Below, piece by piece: positions 33,175 to 49,970 of a stretch of DNA of 64,000 nucleotides (its first letter is position 1; each line of letters begins with the position of its first letter). This DNA comes from Chryseobacterium polytrichastri (lineage in GTDB: Bacteria; Bacteroidota; Bacteroidia; Flavobacteriales; Weeksellaceae), in assembly GCF_900142445.1 (NCBI RefSeq), contig NZ_FRAV01000027.1, forward strand, positions 1 to 64,000, written 5' to 3'. The notes beneath the pieces were generated by a model that had not been told where the DNA came from, did not search any database, and saw nothing but the letters and a program-made list of their open reading frames with translations. The position numbers were made by a program, and so were the translations under genes.

Positions 33175-34704
33175 ATGAGCACTATTACAGAAAAAAAATC
33201 AGGTACTATTTTAGACTGGCCTGACTTCAAAAGCAAATATGATAACTATATTGACGGGAAATTTACCGCTCCAGTGAACGGAGAATATTTTAATGTAGTT
33301 TCTCCAATTGACGGAAAAAATTTCACACAAGCAGCGCACTCCTCTAAAGAAGATTTAGAATTGGCTGTAAATGCGGCCGACAAAGCTTTTCAAACGTGGA
33401 AAAACACATCCTCTACAGAAAGAAGTATTATTTTAAATAAAATTGCAGACAGAATAGAGCAAAATTTAGAATATCTGGCGACCGTTGAAACAATAGATAA
33501 CGGTAAAGCGGTAAGAGAAACATTGGCGGCAGATTTACCTTTGGTGGTAGATCATTTCAGGTATTTTGCCTCTGTGATCCGTGCCGATGAAGGATCACAT
33601 AACGAGTTAGATAAAGATACCGTTTCTTTGATCGTTCACGAGCCGTTGGGAGTCATTGCTCAAATCATTCCTTGGAATTTTCCTTTATTAATGGCAGTTT
33701 GGAAATTAGCTCCGGCATTAGCAGCAGGGAATTGCGTCGTGATGAAACCTGCAGAAAGCACCCCGATTTCTATTATTGTTTTAATGGAAGTGATAGGAGA
33801 TTTATTGCCTGCAGGCGTTATCAATATTGTTAATGGTTTCGGTGCAGAGCTGGGAAGAGCGTTGGTTACAAATCCAAAAGTGAATAAAGCAGCATTTACG
33901 GGTTCTACAGCGACAGGCCGTTTGGTGATGCAGTATGCCACAGAAAATATCATTCCGGTGACGTTGGAATTGGGTGGGAAATCTCCAAACGTTTTCTTCA
34001 GTTCAGTGATGGATGCAGATGATGCATTTTTAGATAAAGCTATTGAAGGCGCTGTTCTTTTTGCGCTAAATCAAGGTGAGATTTGTACGTGTCCGTCAAG
34101 ATTATTGGTTCAGGAAGATATTGCAGATGCGTTTATTGCTAAAGTGATTGAAAGGGTAAAAGCCATTAAAGTAGGAAATCCTTTAGACAAAACAGTGATG
34201 ATGGGCGCTCAGGCTTCTCAGATTCAAAAAGATAAAATCCTTTCTTACATCAAATTAGGAAAAGAAGAAGGCGCAGAAGTGCTTGTGGGAGGTGATGTAA
34301 ACAATGTGGGTGAAGGTTTGGAAGAGGGATACTATATTCAGCCAACGATCTTCAAAGGGAATAACAGAATGAGAATCTTTCAGGAAGAGATTTTCGGACC
34401 TGTGTTGGCGTTCACAACATTTAAAGATGAAGAAGAGGGAATCAAAATTGCCAACGATACCATCTATGGTCTTGGAGCCGGAGTCTGGACAAGAGATGCA
34501 CATCAGTTATACAACGTTCCTCGCCAGATCCAGGCGGGCAGAGTTTGGGTAAATCAATACCATTCTTATCCTGCTGGTGCTCCTTTCGGAGGATATAAAC
34601 AGTCGGGAATTGGTAGAGAAAACCACAAAATGATGTTAGATCATTACCGCCAGACTAAAAATATGTTGATTTCTTACAACAAAAACAAACTAGGTTTCTT
34701 TTAA
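33175..34704 (+). CDS. NAD-dependent aldehyde dehydrogenase (ExaC/AldB-like)
   Basis: A 509-residue cytoplasmic enzyme oxidising aldehydes to acids with NAD(P). The folding and catalytic motifs are complete: IIPWNFPLLMAVWKLAPALAAG, GSTATGR, VTLELGGKSPNVFF with the general-base Glu, and nucleophile Cys304 in NQGEICTCPSR. The GEICTCPSR form is typical of acetaldehyde-type dehydrogenases. It is divergent from an AraC regulator and followed by a Zn alcohol dehydrogenase, so alcohol is probably taken to acid by the two enzymes. The DUF779 gene that often accompanies this family is at 47913. Confidence 0.95.
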   Translation: MSTITEKKSGTILDWPDFKSKYDNYIDGKFTAPVNGEYFNVVSPIDGKNFTQAAHSSKEDLELAVNAADKAFQTWKNTSSTERSIILNKIADRIEQNLEYLATVETIDNGKAVRETLAADLPLVVDHFRYFASVIRADEGSHNELDKDTVSLIVHEPLGVIAQIIPWNFPLLMAVWKLAPALAAGNCVVMKPAESTPISIIVLMEVIGDLLPAGVINIVNGFGAELGRALVTNPKVNKAAFTGSTATGRLVMQYATENIIPVTLELGGKSPNVFFSSVMDADDAFLDKAIEGAVLFALNQGEICTCPSRLLVQEDIADAFIAKVIERVKAIKVGNPLDKTVMMGAQASQIQKDKILSYIKLGKEEGAEVLVGGDVNNVGEGLEEGYYIQPTIFKGNNRMRIFQEEIFGPVLAFTTFKDEEEGIKIANDTIYGLGAGVWTRDAHQLYNVPRQIQAGRVWVNQYHSYPAGAPFGGYKQSGIGRENHKMMLDHYRQTKNMLISYNKNKLGFF

Positions 34705-34983: not shown

Positions 34984-36021
34984 ATGATTCCAAAAACAAT
35001 GAAAGCTGCAGTTGTTCAAGGCTACGGACAGCCGCTACAAATCCAAGAAGTTCCTGTAAAAGTACCGGGAAGATATGAAGTACTCGTAAAAGTAATTGCG
35101 TGTGGAGTTTGCCATACAGATTTACATGCGGTAGATGGCGACTGGCCGGTAAAACCCAAAATGCCATTAATTCCAGGTCACGAAGGAGTCGGAATTGTAG
35201 TGGCATGCGGACCGGAAGCAATGGTAAAAGAAGGAGATGCAGTGGGAGTTCCATGGTTATATTCTGCTTGTGGGTGTTGCGACTACTGTATCACAGGTTG
35301 GGAAACATTGTGTCATGCTCAGCAAAATGGAGGTTATAGCGTTGATGGTGGTTTTGCAGAATATGTCATTGCAGATTCAAGATATGTAGGACATTTAAAA
35401 TCGGATGTCAACTTTTTAGAAATTGCCCCAATTCTTTGTGCGGGAGTAACGGTTTATAAAGGACTAAAAGAAACAGAAACAAAACCGGGAGAGTGGGTGG
35501 CTATTTCAGGAATTGGTGGATTAGGGCACGTTGCCGTACAATATGCAAAAGCAATGGGGATGCACGTTGCGGCGATTGATGTTTCAGATGATAAATTAGC
35601 ATTAGCTAAAAAATTAGGAGCCGATTTAGTGGTCAATGCAAAAAACACAGATCCTGGAGAATATCTACATAAGGAAGTCGGCGGAATGCACGGCGCATTG
35701 ATCACAGCGGTTTCCCCTATCGCATTCAAACAGGGAATTGATGTGTTGAGAAGAAAAGGAACAATTGCCCTTAATGGACTTCCGCCAGGATCTTTTGAAC
35801 TTCCGATTTTTGAAACGGTGTTGAAAAGAATTACGGTAAGAGGTTCGATCGTTGGGACAAGAAAAGATCTTCAGGAAGCATTGGATTTTGCCAATGAAGG
35901 ATTGGTAAAAGCAACGGTAACTTCTGCAAAACTGGAAGATATCAATGAAGTTTTTGATAAAATGAAAGCGGGACAAATCGATGGCAGAATCGTTCTCGAT
36001 ATTGCCGGAAGTGCAAGTTAA
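34984..36021 (+). CDS. adhP: Zinc-dependent alcohol dehydrogenase, AdhP type
   Basis: A 345-residue medium-chain dehydrogenase interconverting alcohols and aldehydes with NAD. The catalytic zinc ligand Cys43 is in [15 protein letters not shown] and the His in IPGHEGVG. Four structural-zinc cysteines are in [15 protein letters not shown], and the Rossmann loop is [17 protein letters not shown]. It lies 279 bases after the aldehyde dehydrogenase, same strand, with repeats in between. A terminator follows at 36040. Confidence 0.94.
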
Positions 36022-36039: not shown

Positions 36040-36072
36040 AAGTCCGGTAGAGTTTTTCTCCGGACTTTTCTT
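36040..36072 (+). terminator. Terminator after adhP
   Basis: AAGTCCGG and CCGGACTT form a perfect 8-base stem with a 12-base loop, followed by TTCTTTG. Confidence 0.7.
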
Positions 36073-36500
36073 TGACAAATATTCAGTGTATTTAGTTCAT
36101 TTTTGTTTAAATTTTATAATAACAATGTTTACTAATACCATCTTTAACAAATTTATTCTTACTAAAAAAATAAAAGAATGTTCATTTTTAATGTTCATTT
36201 TTTTTTATTTTGAAGTCCGTTTAAACTAATAAAAAAATTAAACCGCAAAAGATACAAAAGCTATTATTGAATCATTTAAAGTTTAGCTCTTTTGAAAACA
36301 AAGCTTTCAAAAGAATAAAAATCAAAGCTTTTTTTAACTTTTGGGTTCTTATTTGTATTTTATGATGAACTTAAATAAATAATATATTAATCTTTTGTCT
36401 CTTTTGACTCCGTCGAATCTTCGATTTGTGTTTAAAATAGAAAGTTTAAACAAGTTCTTAATATAACTTCTTTTGACAAAAATACAATCAGATTGTTTAA
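36073..36500. other. AT-rich non-coding stretch at the left edge of the accessory region
   Basis: No gene is visible. Bases 36240-36480 hold an 'aaccgcaaaagatacaaaag' repeat-like segment, the inverted pair TCTTTTGAAAAC / GCTTTCAAAAGA, and a CGTCGAATCTTCGATTT string also present in inverted form at about 302-319. Confidence 0.4.
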
Positions 36501-36690
36501 TTACATTTTATAAATTAGAGAGTCTGTTCTGACTTTATCGAAAGTTTTTGATTCATATTCTTCAATATCTCTTCTAATTTCAAGGGAAATATCTTTTACA
36601 TTATAATTTTCAAAGTAATTAGGTTCAAAATCTTCTGGAAAAATTCTTGATGCCAGGTTTCAATAACTTCTCGTAAATGGATATTAAGGT
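36501..36690 (-). pseudogene. C-terminal remnant of an unidentified gene
   Basis: On the minus strand a 50-codon open stretch ending in a stop at 36501-36503 reads RIFPEDFEPNYFENYNVKDI and continues ISLEIRRDIEEYE, then KTFDKVRTDSLIYKM. Just upstream, in another frame, a further piece (NIHLREVIETWH) joins naturally, so one frameshift separates them. Composition and reading suggest a decayed protein-coding gene. I do not recognise the family. Confidence 0.45.
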
Positions 36691-36897
36691 TTATAAAACA
36701 AATTACCAACAGCAAACAGTCATTGATTTTTTATTCCTAGAGGTAAATCTTTTGTAAGAAATAATACCTTAGCTTTAGTTTACGCGAGTATAATTATGTA
36801 AGTATGGCTTCAACCATAGAGGTGAATTTTTTTTAATTAATTATTTTTTCTGAAAACAGATTTAATCATATCTGAAAATTTCCAATAATGTTTGATT

Positions 36898-37151
36898 TTT
36901 CATTCAGACACATGCGTACAGTATGCCAATACTATTGAATCTTTATGGAGTAATGAGAAGTGTGAGTAGGAAGGGTTATTGTTGGGATAATGTAGTGGCA
37001 GAGAGTTTTTCAAGTCATTAAAAACTGAATTAATTTATGGCAATAAACTCATCGAAAAAAACAAATGGAACTGGAAGTCTTTGAATACATCGAAATATAG
37101 TTCAACAAAAAAAGAAGGCATAGTCCCTTGAATTACAAAAATGTAGCTTAA
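36898..37151 (+). pseudogene. IS3-family transposase orfB, C-terminal remnant
   Basis: The DDE integrase core of an IS3-type OrfB is recognisable across at least three frames: HSDTCVQYAN (normally HSDRGVQYAN), then MRSVSRKGYCWDNVVAESF with the region carrying the catalytic Glu, FKSLKTELIYGNKLI, and QMELEVFEYIEI followed by a TAG where Trp is expected and FNKKRRHSPLNYKNVA. Two or more frameshifts and the stop show that it is dead. The following AATTTTATTTGCACATCCAA may be part of the IS end. No N-terminal half precedes it. Confidence 0.8.
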
Positions 37152-38371
37152 CTAAAGAATGCAAATTTTATTTGCACATCCAATTTTTATTAGATAAATA
37201 ATGGGATTCAGTTGATTTATTTGGTTTTGTAGATTAATTGTTTCATTTGTAATTATTTTATTAAATATTTAATTTTTGTACTGATTTTTTATTAAATTTG
37301 ATTTGATTTATTAAATAAACTACCATGAAATCAATTATTAATTTGAACTTAAAGAGTTTAAACAAATCTTCCAAAAGAATATCACATATCATGATTCTTT
37401 AAACACACAAGTTTTTTGATGATGGATCATGGACATACATGGACGTTGAATAAAATCCGTCCAATCTGAAATATTAGTAAAAAATATAATTAACCATATG
37501 AAACAACTACAAATCACTTACAATTATGATGAAACAACTATTATTACTAACCTTATTAGGGCCTTTCGTTGCCCTTTTAATAACAGTATGTAAACAACGT
37601 AGAAAATAGACATTTTGTGATTAACACCCTATCAATAAACTACTAATATCGTTAAAAAGTTTATAAAGATGATGAATTTGTTGATGGTAATTTGGAAGTT
37701 ATGATTAACAATTTAAAAACAAATTAAGATATATCCAATTATACTACAATAGGTACTGATCATAAACACACTAATATTAAAGATGGAATAACATTTTTGA
37801 AAAATATTATGACCTGGTTCTTTTTTACCCTGAAAACTCAACAAAACAATAAGTCTACAAATATATCATAAGATTAATTTTTTTTACACATATTTCACTA
37901 TTTGTTGATATTTTATTGAGAATAGTTATATTTGGTGTAAAATTGATTTTATAAGATTGAAAAATCTAAAATAAATTTTATTCCTTTTTTCTTATCTACT
38001 GCAAAGCAACTTCAAAATATTTGTAAATAAATAGTAATCATTGAATTATAGAACAGTGCATAATTGTAGTAGAGTTTCCATAGATGCATAATAGTAAATT
38101 TGCAAATACAAAAATGCCAACATATCCGGGTAAATTTTTAGACTAGTCATTTGAGTATAAGATCAGGATTCTAAACGCAAAATAAATTAAAATTCAATTA
38201 AAACCTTTAATTAGGTAATAATAAATAACAAATTATTATTCATTACTTAATGTTTTTTTTTGGTTAGAATGTAAGAGATATTTTAATTATTCCCATAAGT
38301 AAAAGCCCTTGCTATCAAACCTGTATTTGAGAACATTATTGGAAATTATAAAATAATCTAAAATTAAAATA
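37152..38371. other. AT-rich region without supported genes
   Basis: About 1.2 kb of very low GC. A short open stretch at 37324 (MKSIINLNLKSLNKSSKRIS, then a stop after HIMIL) and the 27-codon ORF at 37526 are the only protein-like pieces. Fragments such as KDDEFVDGNLEVMINNLKTN near 37667-37727 hint at decayed genes. Nothing convincing is seen between 37740 and 38371 other than leader sequence for the next gene. Confidence 0.4.
37526..37609 (+). CDS. Possible 27-residue membrane peptide
   Basis: A short ORF encodes MMKQLLLLTLLGPFVALL followed by ITVCKQRRK: one hydrophobic helix with a positively charged end, the layout of a small single-pass membrane peptide. It has no recognised family and no clear ribosome-binding site, and lies in a decayed region, so it may be chance or a fragment. 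Confidence 0.25.
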   Translation: MMKQLLLLTLLGPFVALLITVCKQRRK

Positions 38372-39094
38372 ATGAAAAAAATATTTATGATATTATTAGC
38401 TATAACTTTTTCAAGTATAGTCTATTCTCAGGTAGGTATTAATACAGCCTCACCAAAATCAACCTTAGATATTACAGCTAAAAATTCTACAGGAGCCTCA
38501 ACAAATGTTGATGGCCTTTTAGTACCCAGATTAGACAGACTTCGTGCTCAAAGCATGATTTCAGTCCCTTTATCAACTATGATTTATGTTAATGATATAA
38601 GTACTGGTGCTGCTGCAGGAATTGCTGCTAATATTGATGCTGTAGGATATTATTATTACAATGGCACTATATGGGTAAAGACTGAAACTTTGACTACCTT
38701 AACCAATAACAATAATGGTACCTTTACTTATGTATCTGAAAATGGAACAGGGGTTAGTATTAACGCCGTAGTACCTAAATTTTTTTACATGCCTTCAATA
38801 GTATTGCCTACAAACATTGCAGATCCTGCATATAATCCTTCTACAGGAGAATTTACACTTAATCTTTATCAATTGTATTCCTCACAGTTTACAGCTCCGG
38901 TGATCAGTAGTAATGCTGCCTCAACACTTCCTGTGTTATCCAGTGGAGATATGGATTATTTTGTTACGTATTCTGATGCCAGTGTTTTTAATATTATCTC
39001 TTTGGGTACAGATGGAATATTGAAATATAAACTCCAAACAGGATATGTAATTTCAGAGAAAACGTATATGAATGTTGTATTGAAAGTGAAATAG
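38372..39094 (+). CDS. Secreted structural protein with QVGINT N terminus
   Basis: A 240-residue exported protein. The signal peptide ends in VYSQ and is followed at once by VGINTASPKSTLDITAKNST, the N-terminal motif of a large group of Bacteroidota surface proteins that resemble tail-fibre or adhesin stalks. The middle reads as beta-rich (YYYYNGTIWVKTETLTTL), and the C terminus (SEKTYMNVVLKVK) has no T9SS tail. It is followed two bases later by a 944-residue surface protein, so the two are surely co-transcribed and probably act together. Precise role unknown. Confidence 0.8.
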   Translation: MKKIFMILLAITFSSIVYSQVGINTASPKSTLDITAKNSTGASTNVDGLLVPRLDRLRAQSMISVPLSTMIYVNDISTGAAAGIAANIDAVGYYYYNGTIWVKTETLTTLTNNNNGTFTYVSENGTGVSINAVVPKFFYMPSIVLPTNIADPAYNPSTGEFTLNLYQLYSSQFTAPVISSNAASTLPVLSSGDMDYFVTYSDASVFNIISLGTDGILKYKLQTGYVISEKTYMNVVLKVK

Positions 39095-39096
39095 AT

Positions 39097-41931
39097 ATGG
39101 CGAAATATAAATACTTTTTAGCTTTTTTGTGGATCTTCATATTATCCACAAAAGTTTTTGCCGCAGACTATTATTGGGTAGGAGGCAATGGAAACTGGAG
39201 TGATATCAATCATTGGCGTACAACTTCAGGGGGAACACTTATCCCGAGTGTTATCCCTGGTCCTGTAGATAATGTGTATTTTGATGTAAATTCAGGATTT
39301 ACAGTAGGTAACAGTACAGTGACTTTGAATGTTACCGGAAACAGTCATAATATTACTTTTTCGGGCAGTGCTATAGCACCGACCTTTACCCAGAGTGGTA
39401 CCCAAACCCTTAATATTTATGGTTCCTCAGAATGGCAAATCGGAATGCCTACCATTACGATTTCAAATATTTATTACCGTAATACAGGGGAAGCTAAAAC
39501 GATAAAAAGCAATGGAGTAGGTACGGTTGTATCGGGGAGTACTTATTTTGAGGAGCAGAATTCTATAGATCTCCTTGATGATTTTAGTGTGGGTTTTTTA
39601 GATCATAATGCAGGTACATGGAGTACCAATAATCATCAGGTAATAATTGGGCGTGATTTTTCTACGACTACCAGTACCCAAGCCCGTACAATCAACCTTG
39701 GGAGTTCTGAGGTATTTGTAAGAAATAGTGATGGAATATTCAATATCAGTGGGGCTAATATTACCCTGAATGCAGGAACTTCTCACATTCACTTTAATCC
39801 TAACACAACTTTTACTTCGAGTAATACCCTTATAGGGAGAGCGGGACAGACCTTTTATGATGTAAGTTTTGAGGGAACAACTACTGTGGGAGCAATTGCA
39901 GTAGGAGGAACAGCAGCAGCTCCTTTGAACTTCCATAATGTAGAATTCAAGAATAACGGAAGAATTTCGGGATATAATAATTTTAATCAGTTGCTTTTAG
40001 CCCCTGTTAAAAATTATGAAATAGCAAGTAACAGTACACAACAGATCAACAATCTATTCTCTTTCAGTACCCCAAGCTGCTTAGGTTGGGCCTCACTATC
40101 GTCATCCACTTCTGGTACGGCAGCGAGATTTTCAGCACCTTCTACGGCAGTTATTAATGTCAGTGGTGTTGTAATGCAGGATATTTCAGGAATAGGAGGA
40201 GCATCTTTTATGGCTAATAATTCGGTGAATAACGGAAATAATACAGGGTGGGTTTTCCCTCCTTCTTCGGGTCAGAGCTTATATTGGGTAGGAGGCAATG
40301 GAAATTGGAATGATCAGACCCATTGGTCGCAGACTACTGGTGGAGCAGGAGGATACTGTGTCCCTGGTCCGAACGATAATGTGTATTTTGATGTAAATTC
40401 TGGTTTTACTGTGGGTAATAATACAGTTACGCTGGCAGCTACCGGATATGTCCATAATATTACTTTTTCGGGCAGTGCTATAGCACCGACCTTTATCGAG
40501 AGTGGTAGCCAAACCCTTAATATCTATGGTTCTTCAGAATGGCAAAGCGGAATGCCTACCATTACGATTTCAAATATTTATTATCGCAATACAGGGGAAG
40601 CTAAAACGATAAAAAGCAATGGAGTAGGTACGGTTGTATCGGGTATTACTTATTTTGAGGAGCAGAATTCTATAGATCTCCTTGATGATTTTAGTGTGGG
40701 ATTTTTAGAGCATACAGCGGGTACATGGACTACTAATAATCATCAGGTAACAATTGGACGTAATTTTTTTACGACTACCAGTACCCAAGCCCGTATAATC
40801 AACCTTGGAAGTTCTGAGGTATTTGTAAGAAATAGTGATGGAATATTCAATATCAGTGGGGCTAATATTACCCTGAATGCAGGAACTTCTCACATTCACT
40901 TTAATCCTAACACAACTTTTACTTCGAGTAATACCCTTATAGGGAGAGCGGGACAGACCTTTTATGATGTAAGTTTTGAGGGAACAACTACTGTGGGAGC
41001 AATTGCAGTAGGAGGAACAGCAGCAGCTCCTTTGAACTTCCATAATGTAGAATTCAAGAATAACGGAAGAATTTCGGGATATAATAATTTTGAGGAACTG
41101 TTTTTCGGTACAGGAAAAAGCTATGTTCTAGAGCGCAATACAACCCAGAAAATTACCAATTGGGTGTTAAGCGGTACTCCTTGTAGCATTACTTTTATTG
41201 AAAGCAGTATGGCAGGCACACGTGCTAATGTCAACATAACGGCTGGTAATACAAGTTTTAATTTTGCCAATATTAAAGATCTTAATGCGTCAGGACTTCC
41301 ATTGCAGTTTGGAGATAAGAGCACAGATAACGGAAATAATAGCAATATAACATTTGAACCTTATAATCCGGGGGCTTTTGAAGGCTTTGGAGCAGACTGG
41401 ACTTGCCATGTCATTGATAATGCAACTCCTTCCACTTATATGTTGGGGACAAGTGGTTTCTATGGAAACATATATACAACCTACAAATGGTATAAGCTAA
41501 ATGATCCCAATTATGATCCGGCAGCAGTCATAAGTACTGCCAGCGCGGTAGATATCAGAACTTTTGGATTTGGTACATATAAGGTTGAAGTTTCATATTC
41601 AGATGGTACGTCTGTTACCTGTACCATATCAGACGAGATCAACATTTATTCTAAAACGGAAATACCAGCTGCCTCTGGAAATGTTTGTAAGAAAGCAAGT
41701 AATACTTTAGCTGATATCTCTGTAAATGGAACAGCTATACAATGGTATATTTCTGCATCTTCAGGAACAGCATTACCCATTACAACTCCTATTGTAGATG
41801 GCCAAACCTATTATGTATCACAGACTGTAAACTCTTGCGAGAGTAATAAAGCAGCTGTTACAGTTGTAATGAAAGATTGTCAAAATGCAGTAATGGTAAA
41901 TCCAGGAATAAGAATAAGAGTACAACAATAA
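39097..41931 (+). CDS. Large secreted adhesin-like protein with duplicated modules
   Basis: A 944-residue exported protein, signal peptide ending KVFAAD. It holds two copies of a module beginning YYWVGGNGNWSDINHW and YWVGGNGNWNDQTHW, offset by about 369 residues. Each module is rich in short strands (for example TFSGSAIAPTFTQSGTQTLN). At DNA level 39268-39984 and 40375-41091 are highly similar, with about 280 bases identical at the 3' end. Ig-like segments follow (TYKWYKLNDPNYD, VEVSYSDGTSVTC, QTYYVSQTVNSC). The chain ends in GIRIRVQQ without a typical T9SS domain. Likely a surface or released adhesin made with the 38372 protein. Confidence 0.82.
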   Translation: MAKYKYFLAFLWIFILSTKVFAADYYWVGGNGNWSDINHWRTTSGGTLIPSVIPGPVDNVYFDVNSGFTVGNSTVTLNVTGNSHNITFSGSAIAPTFTQSGTQTLNIYGSSEWQIGMPTITISNIYYRNTGEAKTIKSNGVGTVVSGSTYFEEQNSIDLLDDFSVGFLDHNAGTWSTNNHQVIIGRDFSTTTSTQARTINLGSSEVFVRNSDGIFNISGANITLNAGTSHIHFNPNTTFTSSNTLIGRAGQTFYDVSFEGTTTVGAIAVGGTAAAPLNFHNVEFKNNGRISGYNNFNQLLLAPVKNYEIASNSTQQINNLFSFSTPSCLGWASLSSSTSGTAARFSAPSTAVINVSGVVMQDISGIGGASFMANNSVNNGNNTGWVFPPSSGQSLYWVGGNGNWNDQTHWSQTTGGAGGYCVPGPNDNVYFDVNSGFTVGNNTVTLAATGYVHNITFSGSAIAPTFIESGSQTLNIYGSSEWQSGMPTITISNIYYRNTGEAKTIKSNGVGTVVSGITYFEEQNSIDLLDDFSVGFLEHTAGTWTTNNHQVTIGRNFFTTTSTQARIINLGSSEVFVRNSDGIFNISGANITLNAGTSHIHFNPNTTFTSSNTLIGRAGQTFYDVSFEGTTTVGAIAVGGTAAAPLNFHNVEFKNNGRISGYNNFEELFFGTGKSYVLERNTTQKITNWVLSGTPCSITFIESSMAGTRANVNITAGNTSFNFANIKDLNASGLPLQFGDKSTDNGNNSNITFEPYNPGAFEGFGADWTCHVIDNATPSTYMLGTSGFYGNIYTTYKWYKLNDPNYDPAAVISTASAVDIRTFGFGTYKVEVSYSDGTSVTCTISDEINIYSKTEIPAASGNVCKKASNTLADISVNGTAIQWYISASSGTALPITTPIVDGQTYYVSQTVNSCESNKAAVTVVMKDCQNAVMVNPGIRIRVQQ
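39268..39984 (+). repeat. Internal duplication in the adhesin gene, copy 1
   Basis: From GATAATGTGTATTTTGATG to ATATAATAATTTT this matches 40375-41091 at a constant offset of 1107 bases. Differences are scattered in the first two thirds; the last roughly 280 bases show none that I could find. Confidence 0.85.
40375..41091 (+). repeat. Internal duplication in the adhesin gene, copy 2
   Basis: Second copy of the module DNA, in frame with the first (1107 bases = 369 codons). The near-identity at its 3' end suggests recent duplication or gene conversion. Confidence 0.85.
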
Positions 41932-42056
41932 ATAAATGTAGTATTCCTTCGGTCATATACTATAGTAAGAGACTGTCCGGAAAATTTTGAGGTATCTTGA
42001 AAATTTTTTATTTGAAAATCATTCTCAGGAAATACAAGTAAAATAGATGAAGTTTT

Positions 42057-42094
42057 AAAGAGGCTGTCCGAAAAGGGCAGCCTCTATTTTTTTG
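42057..42094 (-). terminator. Terminator of the histone H1-like gene
   Basis: GAGGCTG and CAGCCTC pair around a short AT/GC loop (GAGGCTGTCCGAAAAGGGCAG..). On the minus strand the hairpin lies directly after the stop codon at 42095. The gap 41932-42056 also holds GAGACTGTCCGGAAAATTTT, resembling an IS end or a degenerate copy of the same hairpin. Confidence 0.6.
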
Positions 42095-42271
42095 TTACTT
42101 TTTAGCTTCTTCAACAGAAACCTTTCTGAATTCTTTGAGCAGCTTACTAAGTTCAAGTGCTGATTTACGGACTCTTGTTCCTGCAGCTTTGTTACCTTTT
42201 TCCAATTGTAATGCGGCGTCTGATTTAAAATTTTCAAACTCGGCATTAATTTTTTCAATAAGATCTTTCAT
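42095..42271 (-). CDS. Histone H1-like small protein (Hc1 family)
   Basis: A 58-residue lysine-rich protein: MKDLIEKINAEFENFKSDAA, then LQLEKGNKAAGTRVRKSALE, LSKLLKEFRKVSVEEAKK. This is the form of the Bacteroidota histone H1-like proteins, helical and with an AGTRxRKSALxLSKLxKEFRK core. It probably binds DNA or nucleoid components. It stands alone inside the accessory region, with a hairpin after its stop codon. A longer reading in another frame over the same bases lacks any family resemblance and was discarded. Confidence 0.85.
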   Translation of the reverse strand: MKDLIEKINAEFENFKSDAALQLEKGNKAAGTRVRKSALELSKLLKEFRKVSVEEAKK

Positions 42272-42693
42272 AGTATTATTTTCTAATGATGAATGGTGAA
42301 AATAGGAGTTTTGCCTGATTCATAATAAGTTGGGTTTCTGAAAATTTAGAGTACTGCAATTTAATTGAACACTATTAAGGTTAAATTTTGATAAGAAAGA
42401 GTATTACCAATAAGCGGATTAAATAACTTTGATTAATCAGGGGCAAAAATTGCAAGATTAATTTTTTTCAGAAATAAGCAGAAAGATAACTGGCGGACCG
42501 TTGAGTGATAAGGGAAGAACCACGAAAAAAAAAATTGACTTCCGTGGAGCATCTTAAAAAAAGAAGGATTTTCAGGGTTGAATATCACAAAAGCAAATGT
42601 AGACCAGAAGCTGATTTATTCATGGGAAGAGCATGGTAACCTTGATTCAGACCACATCATAATACAAAAATAAATAATGTTACTTTTACTTTA
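42272..42693. other. Intergenic stretch with a gene fragment
   Basis: AT-rich DNA. At about 42555-42673 a forward open piece reads EGFSGLNITKANVDQKLIYS and WEEHGNLDSDHIIIQK before a stop, preceded in another frame by KKKLTSVEHLKK. This may be the end of a decayed gene. I do not recognise the family. Confidence 0.3.
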
Positions 42694-44100
42694 TTATAAC
42701 TCCAAAATCCACATATGAAGATTGGTTTCAGCAGAAAGGCCTAATTTTTTTTTCAATCTATATCGTTTTGTTTCAACGGTACGTATGGTTGTATTTTCAT
42801 ACTGACTGATTTCCTTACTGCTAAGATTGAGTCTCAAAAAAGCACAAAATTTCAAATCATGACCTGAAAGATTGGGATTCTGTATTTTGATTTTTTCAAT
42901 AAAATCGGGATATACTTCTGTAAAACGGATAAGAAAAAAAGGATCACCGGATTTTGCAAGTTGCATTACTTCTTTGAATGAAGAGTTGATCTGTAATTTC
43001 ATTTTTTTTGTTTCCTGTGATTTTTCTTCTATAATACTATCCTTTTTCACTTGTTTATTGAAAGAAATTCTTCGGATAAAATAGATACAAATCAAGGCTA
43101 TAATTAGAATAGCAGCAACGATAAAATAATATTTATTTTTTTCGGCTTCTCTTTCATCATCCCTTTCCTCGATCATATTTTCAATAACAGCACTTAAAGT
43201 CTTTTTTTCCTCAGTTTTTATGCTGTCATTAAGACTCATAAATCTATTTGAAAATTCTTTAGACTTTTCGAGGTTATTAAGGAATTCATATGTTTCAGCA
43301 ATTTTTTTATAAAGATTTCTTATTTCATCTCTATTTTTTGCTTTTTGATATCCTTTAAGAGATTTTAGATAATATTCCAAAGCTTTGCCATGATCATTCT
43401 TTGCAGCATATAGATTACCATATACCAATAATGGGGTAGATATTTCAGTGACGATTTTACTTTTTTTAGCTAGGTCCATAGATTTACGTAGATAATATTC
43501 AGCAGAATCCAGATTCTTTTTTTTCTCTATAAACCAATCTGCCGCCTGAGCATACGTTATCGGATCTTCGAGAAGTTGTAAGCATTTATTTCTTGCCACC
43601 TGCATAGAATCTATTTCATTGAGCATCGTAAAATTATACCACTTCCATGAATAACTATAGGTGGTGAAGCTTATTTTCTGTTGTTGATTTGATATTTTTT
43701 CAGCTTCTTTAAGAGCCGCATTGAGATTTTTATTAGACTCTTTAAAAAGTCCTAAATCTGCATATGTAACTCCAAAAGCATTATATAATCTTGAAATAAG
43801 AATAGGATTTTTTATTTCCTTACTTTCTTTTTGAGCCTCACGAAGATAAAAAAGGCTTTCAGTTAACTTCCCCAAAGTAGACATATGAAAGCCAATTCTG
43901 ATGTTTGTAGCTACAATGCATTCGGAATTACCTGTTTTTTTGCAAGACTCTAATGCCTTAAAATTAAATTTTAGGGCATTTTCTATCTCTGATTTATCAG
44001 CATATTCATTATTGATGCTATCAAGAATAGGTAATGTGTAATTCTGAGCATTAGAAGCCATAAATGAAAATAACAACAGAAAAAGTATTTCTTTCTTCAT
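42694..44100 (-). CDS. Membrane-tethered TPR protein with LuxR-like HTH
   Basis: A 468-residue protein from the ATG at 44100, which gives a signal peptide (FLLLFSFMASNAQ); a longer start at 44130 is possible. Tetratricopeptide-like helical repeats fill about residues 30-300 and should lie outside the inner membrane. One membrane helix follows (YYFIVAAILIIALICIYFI), then a coiled linker and a C-terminal helix-turn-helix of LuxR type (LRLNLSSKEISQYENTTIRT and VETKRYRLKKKLGL). Such proteins probably pass a periplasmic signal directly to DNA. It lies between the two adhesin-like loci and may regulate them. The 60572 protein is built the same way. Confidence 0.85.
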   Translation of the reverse strand: MKKEILFLLLFSFMASNAQNYTLPILDSINNEYADKSEIENALKFNFKALESCKKTGNSECIVATNIRIGFHMSTLGKLTESLFYLREAQKESKEIKNPILISRLYNAFGVTYADLGLFKESNKNLNAALKEAEKISNQQQKISFTTYSYSWKWYNFTMLNEIDSMQVARNKCLQLLEDPITYAQAADWFIEKKKNLDSAEYYLRKSMDLAKKSKIVTEISTPLLVYGNLYAAKNDHGKALEYYLKSLKGYQKAKNRDEIRNLYKKIAETYEFLNNLEKSKEFSNRFMSLNDSIKTEEKKTLSAVIENMIEERDDEREAEKNKYYFIVAAILIIALICIYFIRRISFNKQVKKDSIIEEKSQETKKMKLQINSSFKEVMQLAKSGDPFFLIRFTEVYPDFIEKIKIQNPNLSGHDLKFCAFLRLNLSSKEISQYENTTIRTVETKRYRLKKKLGLSAETNLHMWILEL

Positions 44101-45081
44101 AAACAGATAGTCAAATAATATATAAAACAAAATTAAATATTTGACGATGATAATTATTGTTTTTTATAAATAAGTTGAAAAAAGGATGATTTAGAAAGAT
44201 AACTCCACAAAACTTATTAAATATTATCTACTTAAATGCTACTGCATTGTTTTTGTTAAGTTGTTGTTTTTTAATTTGTTGTGGGTGGGTAGTAAAGGAG
44301 TAGTACTCGTTTTGTTATTCAATGGTTATACATTTGCAAAGTAAATTACAACAAGCATTCGAGTATATCGATTAGCTGATTGTGAAGGTACGATTCTAAA
44401 TACACTAAGGAAAAAAATAATTCTAAAAACAAACAACAATTAACAAATAAGAGGTGGGGTAATTTATTCTAATTGTTATAAAGCTGTCCCTGCATTTTCT
44501 CACAACATAATAATCTGAAAAATTTATAAATATATAGTATAGCAGAAGCGGGAAGTGATGGTCTCATCACAACTAGAGTAGAAGTATTTCTGTTTTTTTT
44601 CATTCAACGTTTGTGTTTAGAAGCAGGGATGTTACAAAGCATCCCTGTAATTCTAAATGATACAAAGTAGTCTCAAATTAAAATTTTATGAATTGATTTT
44701 AAGAAAATAAGTCATTTCTTATCAATTTTTGTACTTGCTTTAATATGTAGCGTACTTCAATAATGGAAAATATAAAATTTGGATAGTAGGTAGTGAATTG
44801 TCTTATGATGAGTATTTTATTAATTAATAGTTTGGAATTCGTTTGTATTTACTTGAATTACATGTGTTTTGGATTACTTTTTTAATTAAATTTGAATAAC
44901 AAAACTAACATACCAAACACAAAACTACTTTTCATATACAGGCTCAAATCCCAAATGTATTATTCAAGGTAGATGTAACACCTTACATCTAGAGCATAAA
45001 ATACATATAGAATTCAACAAAAAAAATACTTCATATACACACATAGGAATTGAAAAAAATATAAATTAAAAAATCAATACA
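44101..45081. other. 981-base AT-rich gap with one hairpin
   Basis: No gene is supported on either strand. CAGGGATG at 44624-44631 and CATCCCTG at 44640-44647 form a perfect 8-base hairpin without a T-run. The last 150 bases are AT-rich leader for the 45082 gene. The gap is unusually long, so a non-coding transcript or a decayed gene is possible, but nothing in the sequence proves it. Confidence 0.4.
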
Positions 45082-46143
45082 ATGAAAAAAAATACAATTA
45101 TTTTATCTGCCTTAGTTTTCTCAGGTTTTGCCTTCTCACAGGTAGGCATTCATACTGCTAATCCACAAGGAAGTTTCCATATAGATGGAGCTAAAGATAA
45201 TCCTGCAACAGGAGTTCCTTCGGCTGTTCAACAATCAAATGATTTCGTTTTGCTTAAAAATGGATATATCGGTGTAGGAACAATTAATCCTTCCTCTAAA
45301 CTTGAAATAATAGCGGATAATCAAGGTGAAGGTACAATTAATGATTTTAATTTTAGAGGATTTGGTACATCGAAACTTCCTGCTCTTATCTTTTCAAGTG
45401 CTAATGGAACATATTCAACTCCTTCAAATCTTATCAAAGATGAACCGATTGGTGCAGTAACATTTATTCCAAGAGCAAATAATGGATATAATTATAATGC
45501 AGGGTCTAGAATTAATTCTTATTATCAAGGAAATGGTACCGATGGTTTTACTGATTTGAGATTAATCACATCAGGAAATGAACAAATAAGAATTTCAGAA
45601 ACAGGAAATATAGGAATAGGAACAACAGTACCAACATCTAAATTGGATGTAAATGGAAATACTCGTATTCGTACAATAAATTCTTCAATAGGTACTACTT
45701 CGGATAATATTGTCTCAGCCGATTCAAATGGCAATTTAAGAGTAGTTTCTGATATCCCAAGAAGAACGGTTTATTCTACCACTAGTATTGCTCCAAATGA
45801 CAGTGGCTCCATAACAGTTACTGACCCTAATTTCACTTTTGCTCAAATCAATGTTACAGGAGGTAATGCATGTGCTAGAACAATGATTACAACATTTTCG
45901 AAAAACGGTAATACAATTAACTATTTGGGAGGGCAGGCAAGAGATATTACAGGGCAATTTACTCAATTGGATGCTAACGGAAATAATATATCGATTAAAT
46001 TTCCAGGCGTATTAAATTGTGCTGATGGTGGCAATGGAACGCAGTTTGATTTTGATATTTTAATAAGTGGAAATGTTATAACAATAACCAATAGAGGTAA
46101 TATTGCAAAGTCGTTTACTGCTAGAATTATTAGTAATTTATAA
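45082..46143 (+). CDS. Secreted structural/adhesin-like protein
   Basis: A 353-residue exported protein with signal peptide ending in AFSQ and then VGIHTANPQGSFHIDGAKDN, the same N-terminal type as the 38372 protein. Two GxGTxxPxSKLxx motifs (YIGVGTINPSSKLEI and NIGIGTTVPTSKLDV) are characteristic of tail-fibre-like beta stalks in Bacteroidota. The C-terminal domain is beta-rich and ends in KSFTARIISNL without a T9SS tail. It probably forms a surface or secreted trimer-like structure; partner unknown. It stands alone, followed by a MITE-like element. Confidence 0.8.
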   Translation: MKKNTIILSALVFSGFAFSQVGIHTANPQGSFHIDGAKDNPATGVPSAVQQSNDFVLLKNGYIGVGTINPSSKLEIIADNQGEGTINDFNFRGFGTSKLPALIFSSANGTYSTPSNLIKDEPIGAVTFIPRANNGYNYNAGSRINSYYQGNGTDGFTDLRLITSGNEQIRISETGNIGIGTTVPTSKLDVNGNTRIRTINSSIGTTSDNIVSADSNGNLRVVSDIPRRTVYSTTSIAPNDSGSITVTDPNFTFAQINVTGGNACARTMITTFSKNGNTINYLGGQARDITGQFTQLDANGNNISIKFPGVLNCADGGNGTQFDFDILISGNVITITNRGNIAKSFTARIISNL

Positions 46144-46194
46144 TTAAATAGCTTTACAATAATGAATGTAAGACTGTTTATCATTTTTTTATTC

Positions 46195-46593
46195 TAGAGC
46201 CTGTTTAAATTTCTAAATTTAATTTTTTGCATCACATTCAAATCTTTATCTAAATCATATTCTTTAAGGATTTTTTTTGATTTAAAAGACAATGTACTGA
46301 TGACCTATTTTTCTAACGCAAAGCTTTAGCTTCATTATGTATGTTTTCAGGGAGCAAAGGATAGAATCAACTTCGTTGATTCGTCGAAGCGTATGGATAG
46401 GCATACTGCTTCATCAGCGACGAAGTCGCATGACTTTGCTCACTTAGAATAAAGCAAAATTATTCATCAACTTTGCGTTAATCTTTTTAATCAAAAAATA
46501 ATTTCAAATATCATCTATTGAATATTGTTGATGAATATAAACAACTGATAACTAGATATAAAAAAATATTGAGTAAAATCTAAACAGGCTCTA
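46195..46593. mobile_element. MITE-like element with terminal inverted repeats
   Basis: TAGAGCCTGTTTAAATTT at the left end and its inverted match (AAAATCTAAACAGGCTCTA) at the right end bound 399 bases with no open frame. The interior holds palindromic pieces such as ATCAACTTCGTTGAT. If the ends are GAGCC and GGCTC, a TA dinucleotide flanks both sides, as in mariner/IS630-type elements; because the ends are palindromic this cannot be decided. It lies 52 bases after the adhesin gene. The remainder up to 46814 is AT-rich with no gene. Confidence 0.6.
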
Positions 46594-46814
46594 AAGTTAG
46601 AGTGAATATAATTCGATATTTTCAGACTTATATTATCGTTATTGCGGTTAGAAAATTTGAAAAAAGAAAGTCGAGATGATTTCATCTTAAAAGTTTGCTT
46701 TTTGGCTTTTAATGTTGTCCAGGCATATAAAAAAAGGTTTCCATTATCAATTATACGGAATCATAACCACTTATTATTAAGCTCTATATTTGTATTAGTT
46801 TAAATAAAATCCAC

Positions 46815-47327
46815 ATGATAAAATTAAAATTTCTAATTCCAATTATCTTCTTCATGATAATATCTTCTTGTAATAACGAAGGAACAAAACATAATATAAA
46901 ACTGATAGAAAAAACATCCATAAGAACTAATCTCACAGTTGACTCCTTTCCAGATTCACTTGTTATGGATAATTTTGATGTAGGATGTATGGTTTCTTAT
47001 TCTAAAAAAGATGCTAATGAGTATGAGAATATTTTTATGGAAGGAGCAGGAGTTCCATCTGAAATAGGTAAATCTCTTACTATTATGAAAATTGACAGGA
47101 CTTTACAGGTATTTCATTCCAATGATGAGAAAGATATGAAGAGTATAAATGAAAATCTATTTAAAACAAAATTGAGCAATAAGGATTATGAAGTGGAAGT
47201 AACCACACATCTTGGACAATCTTTTGAAGCATCAGATTCAACTGAACATTTTGGAACAATAAAAGTTACTAGAAAAAAGGATAAGTCTACAATCACTATT
47301 GATTTTAAAGGAGGAGTAGCTTGTTAA
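46815..47327 (+). CDS. Small putative lipoprotein
   Basis: A 170-residue exported protein with lipobox MIISSCNNEG. The mature part is charged (KLIEKTSIRTNLTVDSFPDS and LSNKDYEVEVTTHLGQSFEA) and ends in GGVAC. No family was recognised. It stands alone between the MITE-like element and the IS3 remnant. Coding character is good: signal peptide, even codon use and a full-length frame. Confidence 0.7.
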   Translation: MIKLKFLIPIIFFMIISSCNNEGTKHNIKLIEKTSIRTNLTVDSFPDSLVMDNFDVGCMVSYSKKDANEYENIFMEGAGVPSEIGKSLTIMKIDRTLQVFHSNDEKDMKSINENLFKTKLSNKDYEVEVTTHLGQSFEASDSTEHFGTIKVTRKKDKSTITIDFKGGVAC

Positions 47328-47467
47328 AGCTATTTTTCATTTCAAGTAGTTTTTATATATCTAAAAAGTAAATTTAAGAGCAAAAACTACTGAATTTAAA
47401 ATAAATTCATCATAGTTGTAAGCTATGAACGTTTAAAACGGTTTAATTATTCTTTATCTTTAAGAGT

Positions 47468-47862
47468 ATGAAAATATCAGAAAAAATTTAAGATCCAAAG
47501 TAGTATCTTTAAGTGAGCAGCGAGGCAATGTATCTTCGGTAGCTCAATAATTGGGAATCTGCAAAGAAAGTCTAGTCAATTGTAGAAAACTACACAAAGA
47601 AGGTAAACTTACAAAGAAAAAACAAGTTTCCTTTGATCCCATTAGAGAAGAGTTACTGAGACTTCGCAAGGAACTTGAAGAATCAAAAGCTTGAACGCGA
47701 CATCTTAAAAAAGGTGGCAGGCATATTCTACAAGAGAAAGGGGTAAGATATAAATTTATCAAAGAATACGCTAATATACTTCATGTCGGGAAGACGTGTG
47801 AGGGTGTTAAAAGTAAGCAGTAGCAGTTTCTATTATTGCAAGAAAAGAAAGCCCACTAAACG
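47468..47862 (+). pseudogene. IS3-family transposase remnant: orfA and start of orfB
   Basis: OrfA pieces are clear: VVSLSEQRGNVSSVAQ, a TAA, LGICKESLVNCRKLHKEGKL, TKKKQVSFDPIREELLRLRK, ELEESK, then after a frameshift LERDILKKVAGIFYKRKG (the leucine-zipper end of IS3 OrfA). OrfB begins YKFIKEYANILHVGKTC and, shifted, RVLKVSSSSFYYCKKRKPTKR, and then stops. The integrase core is absent. Several stops and shifts show that it is inactive. The complementary C-terminal part of an orfB lies 10.3 kb upstream in the same orientation. Confidence 0.8.
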
Positions 47863-47912
47863 AACATTTACACTCTATCTTTTTTAACTTTAATTCAATA
47901 AAAACAAAAAAA

Positions 47913-48296
47913 ATGGAAACAAAAATATCCAGAGTATCAGTCACAGAAAAAGCGCTTGAAGTTATTTGGGAGCTAGAGAAGAAATACGACGAACTCATGT
48001 TCTACCAAGCGGGAGGATGTTGTGAAGGAACTCAACCCCAATGCTTCGAAAAAGGAGGTTTTTTTCCAAGAATGAATGATGCTATGATAGGAACCATCAA
48101 CGGTCACGAATTCTGGATTGATCGCGATTTATTTGAGTACTGGAAATATTCTCACTTTACATTAGATGTTGTAGATGGTTTCGGACCGGGTGGATTTTCA
48201 TTAGAAACGCCTTTAGGAAAAACCTTTAAAGTAGAATATAAACTTTTCACCCCTGAAGAATTCGAAAACTTAGAACCTGTAAAACGCAGTGAATAA
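47913..48296 (+). CDS. DUF779 domain protein
   Basis: A 127-residue cytoplasmic protein of the DUF779 family, recognisable by MFYQAGGCCEGTQPQCF and DFFIDRDLFEYWKYS-like WIDRDLFEYWKYSHFTLDVV. Members are small, Cys-rich near the N terminus and usually encoded beside aldehyde dehydrogenases of the type found at 33175; the exact role is not known. Here the nearest such enzyme is 13 kb away, across the accessory region. The conserved cysteine pair suggests metal or redox function, which is inference. Confidence 0.85.
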   Translation: METKISRVSVTEKALEVIWELEKKYDELMFYQAGGCCEGTQPQCFEKGGFFPRMNDAMIGTINGHEFWIDRDLFEYWKYSHFTLDVVDGFGPGGFSLETPLGKTFKVEYKLFTPEEFENLEPVKRSE

Positions 48297-48381: not shown

Positions 48382-48738
48382 CTCCCACAGATAAAGCAGA
48401 TGTTTGCGTTTAAATTATTTGTGGAAATTCGTGAAAAAAGATTCGTGTCATTCGTGTTTAATCTGGAAGACAAAAAATCTATGAAAATTTGTGGTTGAAA
48501 ATCTCTCCCGCAGATTTCACAGATAAACGCAGATGTTTGCGTTTAAATTGTTTGTGGAAATTCGTGAAGAAAGATTCGTGTCATTCGTGTTTAATCTGGA
48601 AGACAAAAAATCTATGAAAATTTGTGGTTGAAAATCTCTCCCGCAGATTTCACAGATAAACGCAAATGTTTGCGTTTAAATTATTTGTGGAAATTAGTGA
48701 AAGATATTCGTGTCATTTGTGTTTAAACTACAAAAAAA
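48382..48738. repeat. Three-copy array of a 120-135-base intergenic repeat
   Basis: Three units start at 48382, 48505 and 48638, each running CTCCCGCAG..GCAGATGTTTGCGTTTAAA..TTTGTGGAAATTCGTGAA..GATTCGTGTCATTCGTG..AATCTGGAAGAC..AAATTTGTGGTTGAAAAT; the third is cut short. Spacings are 123 and 133 bases. A short related piece precedes at 48318. No coding potential. Partial relatives exist near 171-205 and 4793-4830. Confidence 0.85.
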
Positions 48739-48770
48739 ATAGGACGTCAAAATTGTGTTTAAATAAAACA

Positions 48771-49970
48771 TCAAGTCTTGACAAACCGATTCACAAACAT
48801 CGAAGCTACAACCTGTCCAACCGCATTTAAAACCGTTGCCAAAGGATCAACCAATGTTCCGATAATCATTACAGCCGGAATCGCTTCCTGAGGCAATTTA
48901 TAAACAGAGATCATCAGCATTTCACCAATATATCCACCGTTGGGAATTCCTCCTGCAACGATACTTACAAAAACCGTAATTCCTAATGCTAACAGAAGAT
49001 TTGTCGGTTCAAAAAAATCTCTGCCGATAATTAAGAAGGCTACGTAAATTTTAATGATGGAAGACATGGAAGATCCATTCTTATGCAAAGTGGTTCCAAT
49101 AGGAATCACAAGATTCGCAATAGAACTTGGAACACCAATTTTTGATGCAGCCTGTAAGTTAGCAGGCATGGTGGCAAAGCTGCTGCAGGTACTTAACGCA
49201 GTTAAGCTTGGATAGATTGCATTTTTCCAGAAGCTCTTGATACCATTTTGTCCGTTTGCCATAAATGCATAGAGTGAGAAAAATACGAAGAAATAAACAA
49301 TTCCTGCGATATAATATAAGCCTAAAGGTTTCGCATAAAATCCAAAAAGCTGAGGTCCTAAAGTAGCTACCTGATAGGCAAAATAAGCACCCAACCCAAT
49401 TGGTGCGATTTTCATGATCAATAAAAGCAATTCTTTCATTACCTCATATCCGGAGGCAAGAAAAACTCTGAAGGGCTGCCCTTGTTCACCTGCTTTTCTT
49501 GCTGCAAATCCTGTCATAAAAGCAAAAATTAAGAGCGCCAACATATTTTGCCTTGAAAAAAGCTGGGTAAATTCTCCTACGGTAAAGAAACCTACAATTC
49601 TATTTCCCCAAGTGTCATTATTAGCTGCTTCTTCTACAATTTCCTTGCTTCCCGAAACTCCGGAAACAGGAAATAAATAAACAACACAGATGGTAAAAAT
49701 AGCCGCTGTTAAAATAAAGAATAGAAAGGTGAAAACCATGGTCAACATTATTTTTCCAAACTTAGACTGCTGTTCCAAAGAAGCAATAGAATTAGAAACG
49801 GCAAAAAAGACCAGCGGAACTACACTCACAAAAAGGAGATTAAGGAAAATATCTCCCAAAGGTTTTATATAATCTACAAAATGGGGTGCAATAATTCCGA
49901 TAATACTTCCAACAGTGATTCCGACGAGTAAAAATATAATTCCGGAGTAGTTTTTAAATACTTCTTTCAT
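48771..49970 (-). CDS. Dicarboxylate/amino acid:cation symporter
   Basis: A 399-residue inner-membrane secondary transporter of the DAACS (glutamate transporter GltP/DctA) family. About eight membrane segments are visible (YSGIIFLLVGITVGSIIGII, then IMLTMVFTFLFFILTAAIFT). Family motifs include the serine-rich hairpin region (STCSSFATMPANLQAA), VIPIGTTLHKNGSSMSSIIK, where most relatives have NMDG, and the late VDPLATVLNAVGQVVASMFV. It imports C4-dicarboxylates or acidic amino acids with protons or sodium. A TATCTTTG box (minus strand, 49984-49991) lies just upstream. Confidence 0.93.
   Translation of the reverse strand: MKEVFKNYSGIIFLLVGITVGSIIGIIAPHFVDYIKPLGDIFLNLLFVSVVPLVFFAVSNSIASLEQQSKFGKIMLTMVFTFLFFILTAAIFTICVVYLFPVSGVSGSKEIVEEAANNDTWGNRIVGFFTVGEFTQLFSRQNMLALLIFAFMTGFAARKAGEQGQPFRVFLASGYEVMKELLLLIMKIAPIGLGAYFAYQVATLGPQLFGFYAKPLGLYYIAGIVYFFVFFSLYAFMANGQNGIKSFWKNAIYPSLTALSTCSSFATMPANLQAASKIGVPSSIANLVIPIGTTLHKNGSSMSSIIKIYVAFLIIGRDFFEPTNLLLALGITVFVSIVAGGIPNGGYIGEMLMISVYKLPQEAIPAVMIIGTLVDPLATVLNAVGQVVASMFVNRFVKT

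Follow-up and report, generated by a model that had tools for sequence, protein, structure and literature searches.

An 11.8-kb lineage-specific insert between adhP and a DUF779 gene of Chryseobacterium polytrichastri carries fragments of two different IS3-family elements

The adhP–DUF779 locus and its empty site

The window analysed here, a stretch of 64,000 nucleotides from contig NZ_FRAV01000027.1 of Chryseobacterium polytrichastri (assembly GCF_900142445.1), contains the alcohol dehydrogenase gene adhP and a DUF779 gene, which are separated by a spacer of ~11.9 kb that holds a lineage-specific insert of 11.8 kb (36077–47879). The conserved left flank comprises an ExaC-like aldehyde dehydrogenase gene (33175–34704, forward strand; NCBIfam NF050026, E-value (E) 1.7e-260, score 864.8 against a cut-off of 900), which is found upstream of adhP in relatives as well, and adhP itself, the left neighbour of the insert (34984–36021, forward strand; NCBIfam NF006940 above cut-off; 99.7% amino-acid identity in Chryseobacterium sp. 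ERMR1:04). The latter gene ends in an intrinsic terminator, a hairpin plus T-tail (36040–36073, forward strand; fold of −15.8 kcal/mol), which is the insertion site. The right neighbour is the gene of the DUF779 protein (47913–48296, forward strand; PF05610, E 2.7e-32). An earlier note, made from the sequence alone, had described positions 36898–47862 as an adhesin-bearing accessory stretch, bounded by the remains of two direct copies of one insertion sequence (IS) of the IS3 family. We read the stretch, with a probability of roughly 0.78, as a lineage-specific islet that lies in the terminator T-tail between adhP and DUF779 and did not arise from two copies of one IS.

Of the named relatives found, the two closest both have an empty site. 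ERMR1:04 (locus L112), the closest found, matches the flanks with 94.2% and 91.0% nucleotide identity and has a spacer of 301 bp, while C. limigenitum (L113) matches them with ~86% and has a spacer of 84 bp; the terminator hairpin is present in both. The alignment with L113 stops at window position 36076 and restarts at 47880, which places the insert at 36077–47879. The left junction lies within the adhP terminator T-tail with an uncertainty of ~3 bp, and both junctions fall inside a single stretch of ~9 bp of the empty site. A T-rich stretch of ~9 bp recurs imperfectly at both ends of the insert; we do not take it as a target duplication, though it could be one. A transfer RNA (tRNA) gene is absent from the insertion site.

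The wider comparison drew on at least 80 named adhP loci, 80 of which were kept, each with 10 kb of flank. DUF779 was found downstream of adhP in 73 of them, after a spacer of 7–591 bp (median 101), upstream in four, and not within reach in three. Among 35 further genomes of the genus searched, all 19 with a close adhP carried DUF779 at most ~600 bp downstream. Taken with the two closest relatives, these counts bear out the insertion event that the earlier note had proposed. Whether the ERMR1:04 spacer is what remains there after loss of the insert was also considered, a reading rejected because no significant match emerged (best E 0.10). Repeats are found in the spacer of other species: that of L129 holds a miniature inverted-repeat transposable element (MITE) of the same family as the one in the insert (81%), and that of L112 a different repeat, which is found too in L161, L135, L117 and L143.

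Two side observations concern the neighbouring genes. A close adhP is missing from 13 of the 32 same-genus genomes with DUF779 (G001–G035); several of these loci keep a terminator-like hairpin and one, in G022, an apparent piece of the adhP 3′ end, as judged by eye. Beyond DUF779, positions 48393–48790 hold a tandem repeat of ~133 bp, made up of two nearly identical copies plus a weaker third, and the alignment suggests that the copy number differs in ERMR1:04.

Two IS3 fragments from different elements

The two IS3 fragments are present as the earlier note had described them, both reading rightward, and both are decayed. The left one (~36884–37182, forward strand), hereafter the IS-A relic, retains the C-terminal portion of an OrfB of IS3 type and the right terminus of its element, and is broken by a frameshift and stops. 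The right one (~47448–47858, forward strand), the IS-B relic, comprises an IS3-type OrfA and the start of OrfB with an in-frame stop and frameshifts, and both element ends are missing. With peptides read through the breaks, Pfam rve_3 and rve_2 were matched below cut-off by the former and HTH_Tnp_1 above cut-off by the latter; an IS3 transposase model matched both, below its cut-off. The IS-A right terminus, TTTGCACATCCA, was located at 37171–37182, where none of 2000 shuffles scored as well, and the IS-B left terminus was not recognisable in the right fragment, where 1232 of 2000 shuffles did. The right fragment ends ~20 bp from the right junction, and the left one lies ~800 bp inside the left junction, so that the left fragment does not bound the inserted segment as had been supposed.

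Their identities were established against copies from other loci. The left fragment is 72–76% identical to all five IS-A copies and 48–63% to all 12 IS-B copies compared, and clusters with IS-A in the tree with a support of 1.000. Conversely, the right fragment is 71–85% identical to all 14 IS-B copies and 53–56% to all five IS-A copies, and falls on the IS-B side of the tree split, again with a support of 1.000; L069 was omitted from this set, its start motif not having been found, and other IS-B matches entered neither set. The OrfBs of IS-A and IS-B, taken from the whole copies L048 and L059, are 55% identical. Judged by sequence, both fragments are thus members of the IS3 family but of two different elements, and a single IS present in two copies, each reduced to one half, does not account for them. 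The alignment to full IS3 elements that the earlier note had put forward as a check accordingly separates them at the level of the element, not at that of the family, and the shared origin it had inferred for them does not hold.

Copies spanning the whole of IS-A, some of them broken, were found in G035, G003 and G026 (L047–L049, L052 and L053), and copies spanning the whole of IS-B, likewise broken in part, in other genomes (such as L057–L063, L065, L066, L069 and L071). The own genome of C. polytrichastri holds three partial IS-B copies elsewhere (L002, L004 and L005). Two IS-B copies, L044 in G020 and L005, are internally shortened with both ends recognisable. The whole copies L048 (IS-A) and L059 (IS-B) match PF01527 and PF00665, with an OrfB over the cut-off of NCBIfam NF033516. 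Terminal inverted repeats of the IS3 family generally begin with TG. The left ends read TGG in all five IS-A and in 11 of the 14 IS-B copies, the remaining IS-B ends being TGA, CGG and AGG; the right ends read ATCCA in IS-A and TTCA in IS-B, whose terminal repeats are imperfect. Inspection by eye for target duplications around the copies of either element revealed nothing consistent.

The IS3 model gave 22 matches in the 5.1-Mb draft, which group by eye into ~16 places. By hand arithmetic, ~0.5 pairs of such places are expected at most 11 kb apart, and contig C60 has three within ~4.5 kb, so that the presence of a pair of IS3 scraps in the same stretch is unremarkable in itself.

Insert contents and related modules

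The stretch between 36898 and 47862 is poorer in genes and in guanine plus cytosine (GC) than its surroundings, as the earlier note had observed. Its GC content is 31.0%, compared with 34.4% elsewhere in the window and 32.4–36.5% in 58 equally sized windows from the flanks, and open reading frames (ORFs) of at least 110 aa cover 55% of it, compared with 79–92% in those windows.

From left to right, the insert opens with a dispersed intergenic repeat, R1 (36208–36456; 84% identical to G096 and 82% to G166), copies of which occur in three of seven own-genome loci compared (L204, L225 and L218). This is followed by the 3′-end fragment of a putative helix-turn-helix (HTH)/S24-like regulator gene, named by reading (36534–36762, reverse strand; 77–81% nucleotide identity to the end of an ORF of 262–274 aa in G138, G097, G160 and G098). 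Past the IS-A relic lie a secreted-type protein of 240 aa (38372–39094, forward strand), which has an SQVGINT N-terminus and shares its first 100 residues with proteins at other loci, and a surface-type protein of 944 aa with an Ig_7 domain (39097–41931, forward strand; PF19081, E 5e-7, over cut-off). The gene of the latter contains an internal duplication at 39172–41043, with ~1.1 kb from start to start and an identity of up to 89%. A histone H1-like Hc1 gene (42095–42271, reverse strand; PF07432, E 5.3e-23) is the second copy of the genome, the other being at G000:C60:81969. Next come a regulator-like tetratricopeptide repeat (TPR) protein of 470 aa (42694–44106, reverse strand; PF13424, E 3.8e-12, over cut-off) with a weak C-terminal HTH (PF08281, E 0.0043, below cut-off) and a surface-type protein of 353 aa with an SQVGIHT N-terminus (45082–46143, forward strand). 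The MITE of ~400 bp (46195–46593), with terminal inverted repeats of 18 bp, was anticipated in the earlier note and has a 97% copy in the same genome (G000:C60:146434–146833) and a 94% copy in G129. A protein of 170 aa, a putative lipoprotein from reading its N-terminus (46815–47327, forward strand; relatives of 76–81% nucleotide identity in G069, G098 and G021), precedes the IS-B relic.

The genes that had been called adhesin-like are of surface or secreted type, and the adhesin label itself is unproved. The 240-aa protein gave no match in scans with Pfam, NCBIfam and PHROGs, nor did the 353-aa protein with Pfam or NCBIfam, and two single-sequence structure models were too poor to be of use (mean predicted local distance difference test scores of 35.8 and 40.5). 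In the 353-aa protein, residues 166–237 resemble a PHROGs tail-fibre family (E 5e-7), and a separate search matched 45 aa to a phage fibre protein (E 2e-5). A phage origin of this protein was rejected, as the tail-fibre-like part is only a short stretch. No mobility gene is recognised among the ORFs scanned: apart from the IS fragments and that tail-fibre-like stretch, neither an integrase, Rep or relaxase nor a structural gene of a phage turned up when six ORFs of the insert were compared with Pfam, NCBIfam and PHROGs and ten additional short ones with Pfam, scans that did not extend to the remaining overlapping or shorter ORFs.

Genes for TPR regulator-like proteins and for surface proteins of the SQVGIN type adjoin at several loci in the own genome, ERMR1:04 and C. 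limigenitum. On contig C63 of the own genome (G000), near 15.8 kb, 4.5 kb with a TPR gene and a surface-protein gene (L204:3763–8258) correspond to 370 bp in ERMR1:04 (L232:13931–14301); this short site holds a dispersed repeat, 74% identical to the kind in the ERMR1:04 adhP–DUF779 spacer. Near 30.6 kb of the same contig (24.6–32.0 kb; L224:2664–10035), 8.6 kb correspond to ~85 bp (G171:C3:279752–279837, L232). The latter module has direct repeats of ~270–320 bp, consisting of intergenic DNA, at both ends, the right one containing a palindrome, TTATCCACA, which we take to be DnaA-box-like and which is degenerate in the left copy. Hence, all three module sites compared with ERMR1:04, namely the window and the two on C63 (C70, C51 and C16 were left aside), lack the module there. 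Since two further modules are missing from ERMR1:04 along with that of the window, modules of TPR and surface-protein genes seem to turn over quickly, and gain here rather than loss in ERMR1:04 is supported for the window only. At the C32 site, the flanking genes are shared with a C. limigenitum locus and, by eye, the module is present in both, which speaks against simple presence or absence at C32. That such modules form a recurrent exchange unit in Chryseobacterium, moving as discrete intergenic cassettes without a recombinase of their own, is a tentative idea that we consider doubtful.

Origin of the insert and likeness to known systems

The same block, with or without the IS fragments, was found in no genome searched, the searches being a nucleotide scan of 148 genomes of the genus, with the best two candidates scored per genome, and a comparison of three genomes for 37900–46190. 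For that part, neither ERMR1:04 nor C. limigenitum has a close copy, a 77% match in the Hc1 gene being the best, and a move of the block from elsewhere in the genome was rejected on this ground. The matches listed from the 148 genomes are short, the majority falling in the MITE, in IS sequences, in further repeats or in Hc1, and the best relative of the 470-aa TPR protein in this set is 47% identical. A donor of the block was not found in the genomes searched, and among the titles and abstract openings returned by a literature search, no title dealt with the adhP–DUF779 locus. Extra Hc1 copies occur in two of 21 other same-genus genomes as well as in ERMR1:04 and C. limigenitum. Translocation of the core Hc1 gene into the insert was rejected, a second Hc1 being present at C60.

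Under the reading of a single islet, an unsampled relative is the most likely source of the block, and its entry into the chromosome was most likely through recombination that required no enzyme encoded by the block itself. Its IS scraps had probably decayed before the event and were most likely carried along as debris. Over its full length, the IS-B fragment reaches no more than 85% identity to any of the 14 copies, with shorter stretches of up to 88%, compared with 91–94% between the flanks and ERMR1:04, so that this fragment probably predates the insertion. The working cargo would be a surface-protein module made up of the TPR regulator-like protein and the neighbouring secreted-type proteins, with the former possibly controlling the surface proteins.

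Several points weigh against this reading. A horizontal origin would depend on absence in searches of limited extent that yielded no donor. An insert longer than the 10-kb flank would have been scored as lacking DUF779, and three loci were so scored; these are distant, with an adhP of 82–83% identity and the aldehyde dehydrogenase not within reach. The T-rich stretch of ~9 bp could be a target duplication from an unrecognised transposase, and the MITE, 97% identical to the other copy in its own genome, may be a later arrival. Moreover, the stretch could be the product of several independent insertions, and the contig, from a draft, might have been misassembled.

Build-up in steps, in which unrelated insertions (repeats, IS-A, the gene module, the MITE and IS-B) enlarged the spacer instead of one block, is unlikely, albeit worth keeping in mind. 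The stretch is indeed a mosaic of dispersed pieces, and small repeats occupy the same spacer in other species (L129 and L112), but no intermediate was encountered, all 73 measured spacers being of at most 591 bp, and the IS-B fragment appears too diverged to have been inserted after the split from ERMR1:04. We regard as improbable that the insert is the remnant of an integrated plasmid, phage or conjugative element. Among plasmids, 38000–45900 finds its best nucleotide matches in two small ones of C. glaciei, at their Hc1 genes (79%), and one of the two also encodes a distant relative (28%) of the 944-aa protein, and the tail-fibre-like stretch would suit a phage; however, integration of a plasmid was rejected, since the C. 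glaciei plasmids match only Hc1 by nucleotide within that range and the 944-aa protein distantly, and Hc1 is no plasmid mark because extra copies occur in genomes of the genus. The 16 ORFs scanned, devoid of integrase, Rep, relaxase and phage structural genes, and the site without a tRNA gene also argue against such a remnant. That a foreign piece was joined into the contig during assembly is very improbable: the draft comprises 99 contigs, but the two flanks align in order with the same relatives, the junctions lie within one stretch of ~9 bp of the empty site, and the MITE of the insert has its 97% copy elsewhere in the genome. Least credible is the relic of a composite transposon, a segment bounded by two direct copies of one IS3 that each lost the outer half, which fits the order and orientation of the fragments and the inner (right) terminus kept by the left one, but not their origin from different elements, the ~800 bp outside the left fragment or the right fragment without a recognisable inner terminus.

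Overall, of the interpretation advanced in the earlier note, the insertion stands and its cause, two copies of one IS, falls. The case is an ordinary lineage-specific accessory insertion, plus a modest lead on module turnover. What is useful here is that a close relative has the site empty, together with the hint that regulator and surface-protein modules are gained and lost as units in the genus. The case also corrects a tempting reading, since a gene block with IS scraps on either side qualifies as a composite transposon only where both scraps belong to the same element and lie at the edges. If modules do come and go as units, this would bear on surface variation in Chryseobacterium.

Among known systems, genomic islets are alike in their lower GC content and coding density, their mobile-element debris and the empty site in close relatives; unlike them, the insert occupies the tail of a terminator instead of a tRNA gene site, and it has no recognised recombinase. 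A composite transposon with two IS copies is similar in that IS sequences near its two ends point the same way, but here these stem from two different IS3 elements, the left piece is off the edge and both are decayed. Insertion sequences of the IS3 family (OrfA/OrfB) are matched by whole copies of IS-A and IS-B, whose OrfBs exceed the cut-off of the IS3 transposase model; the window contains only broken fragments of each. Finally, the insert has the same kinds of gene as the TPR and SQVGIN modules of Chryseobacterium, with a TPR protein that is at most 47% identical to its relatives in the 148 genomes.

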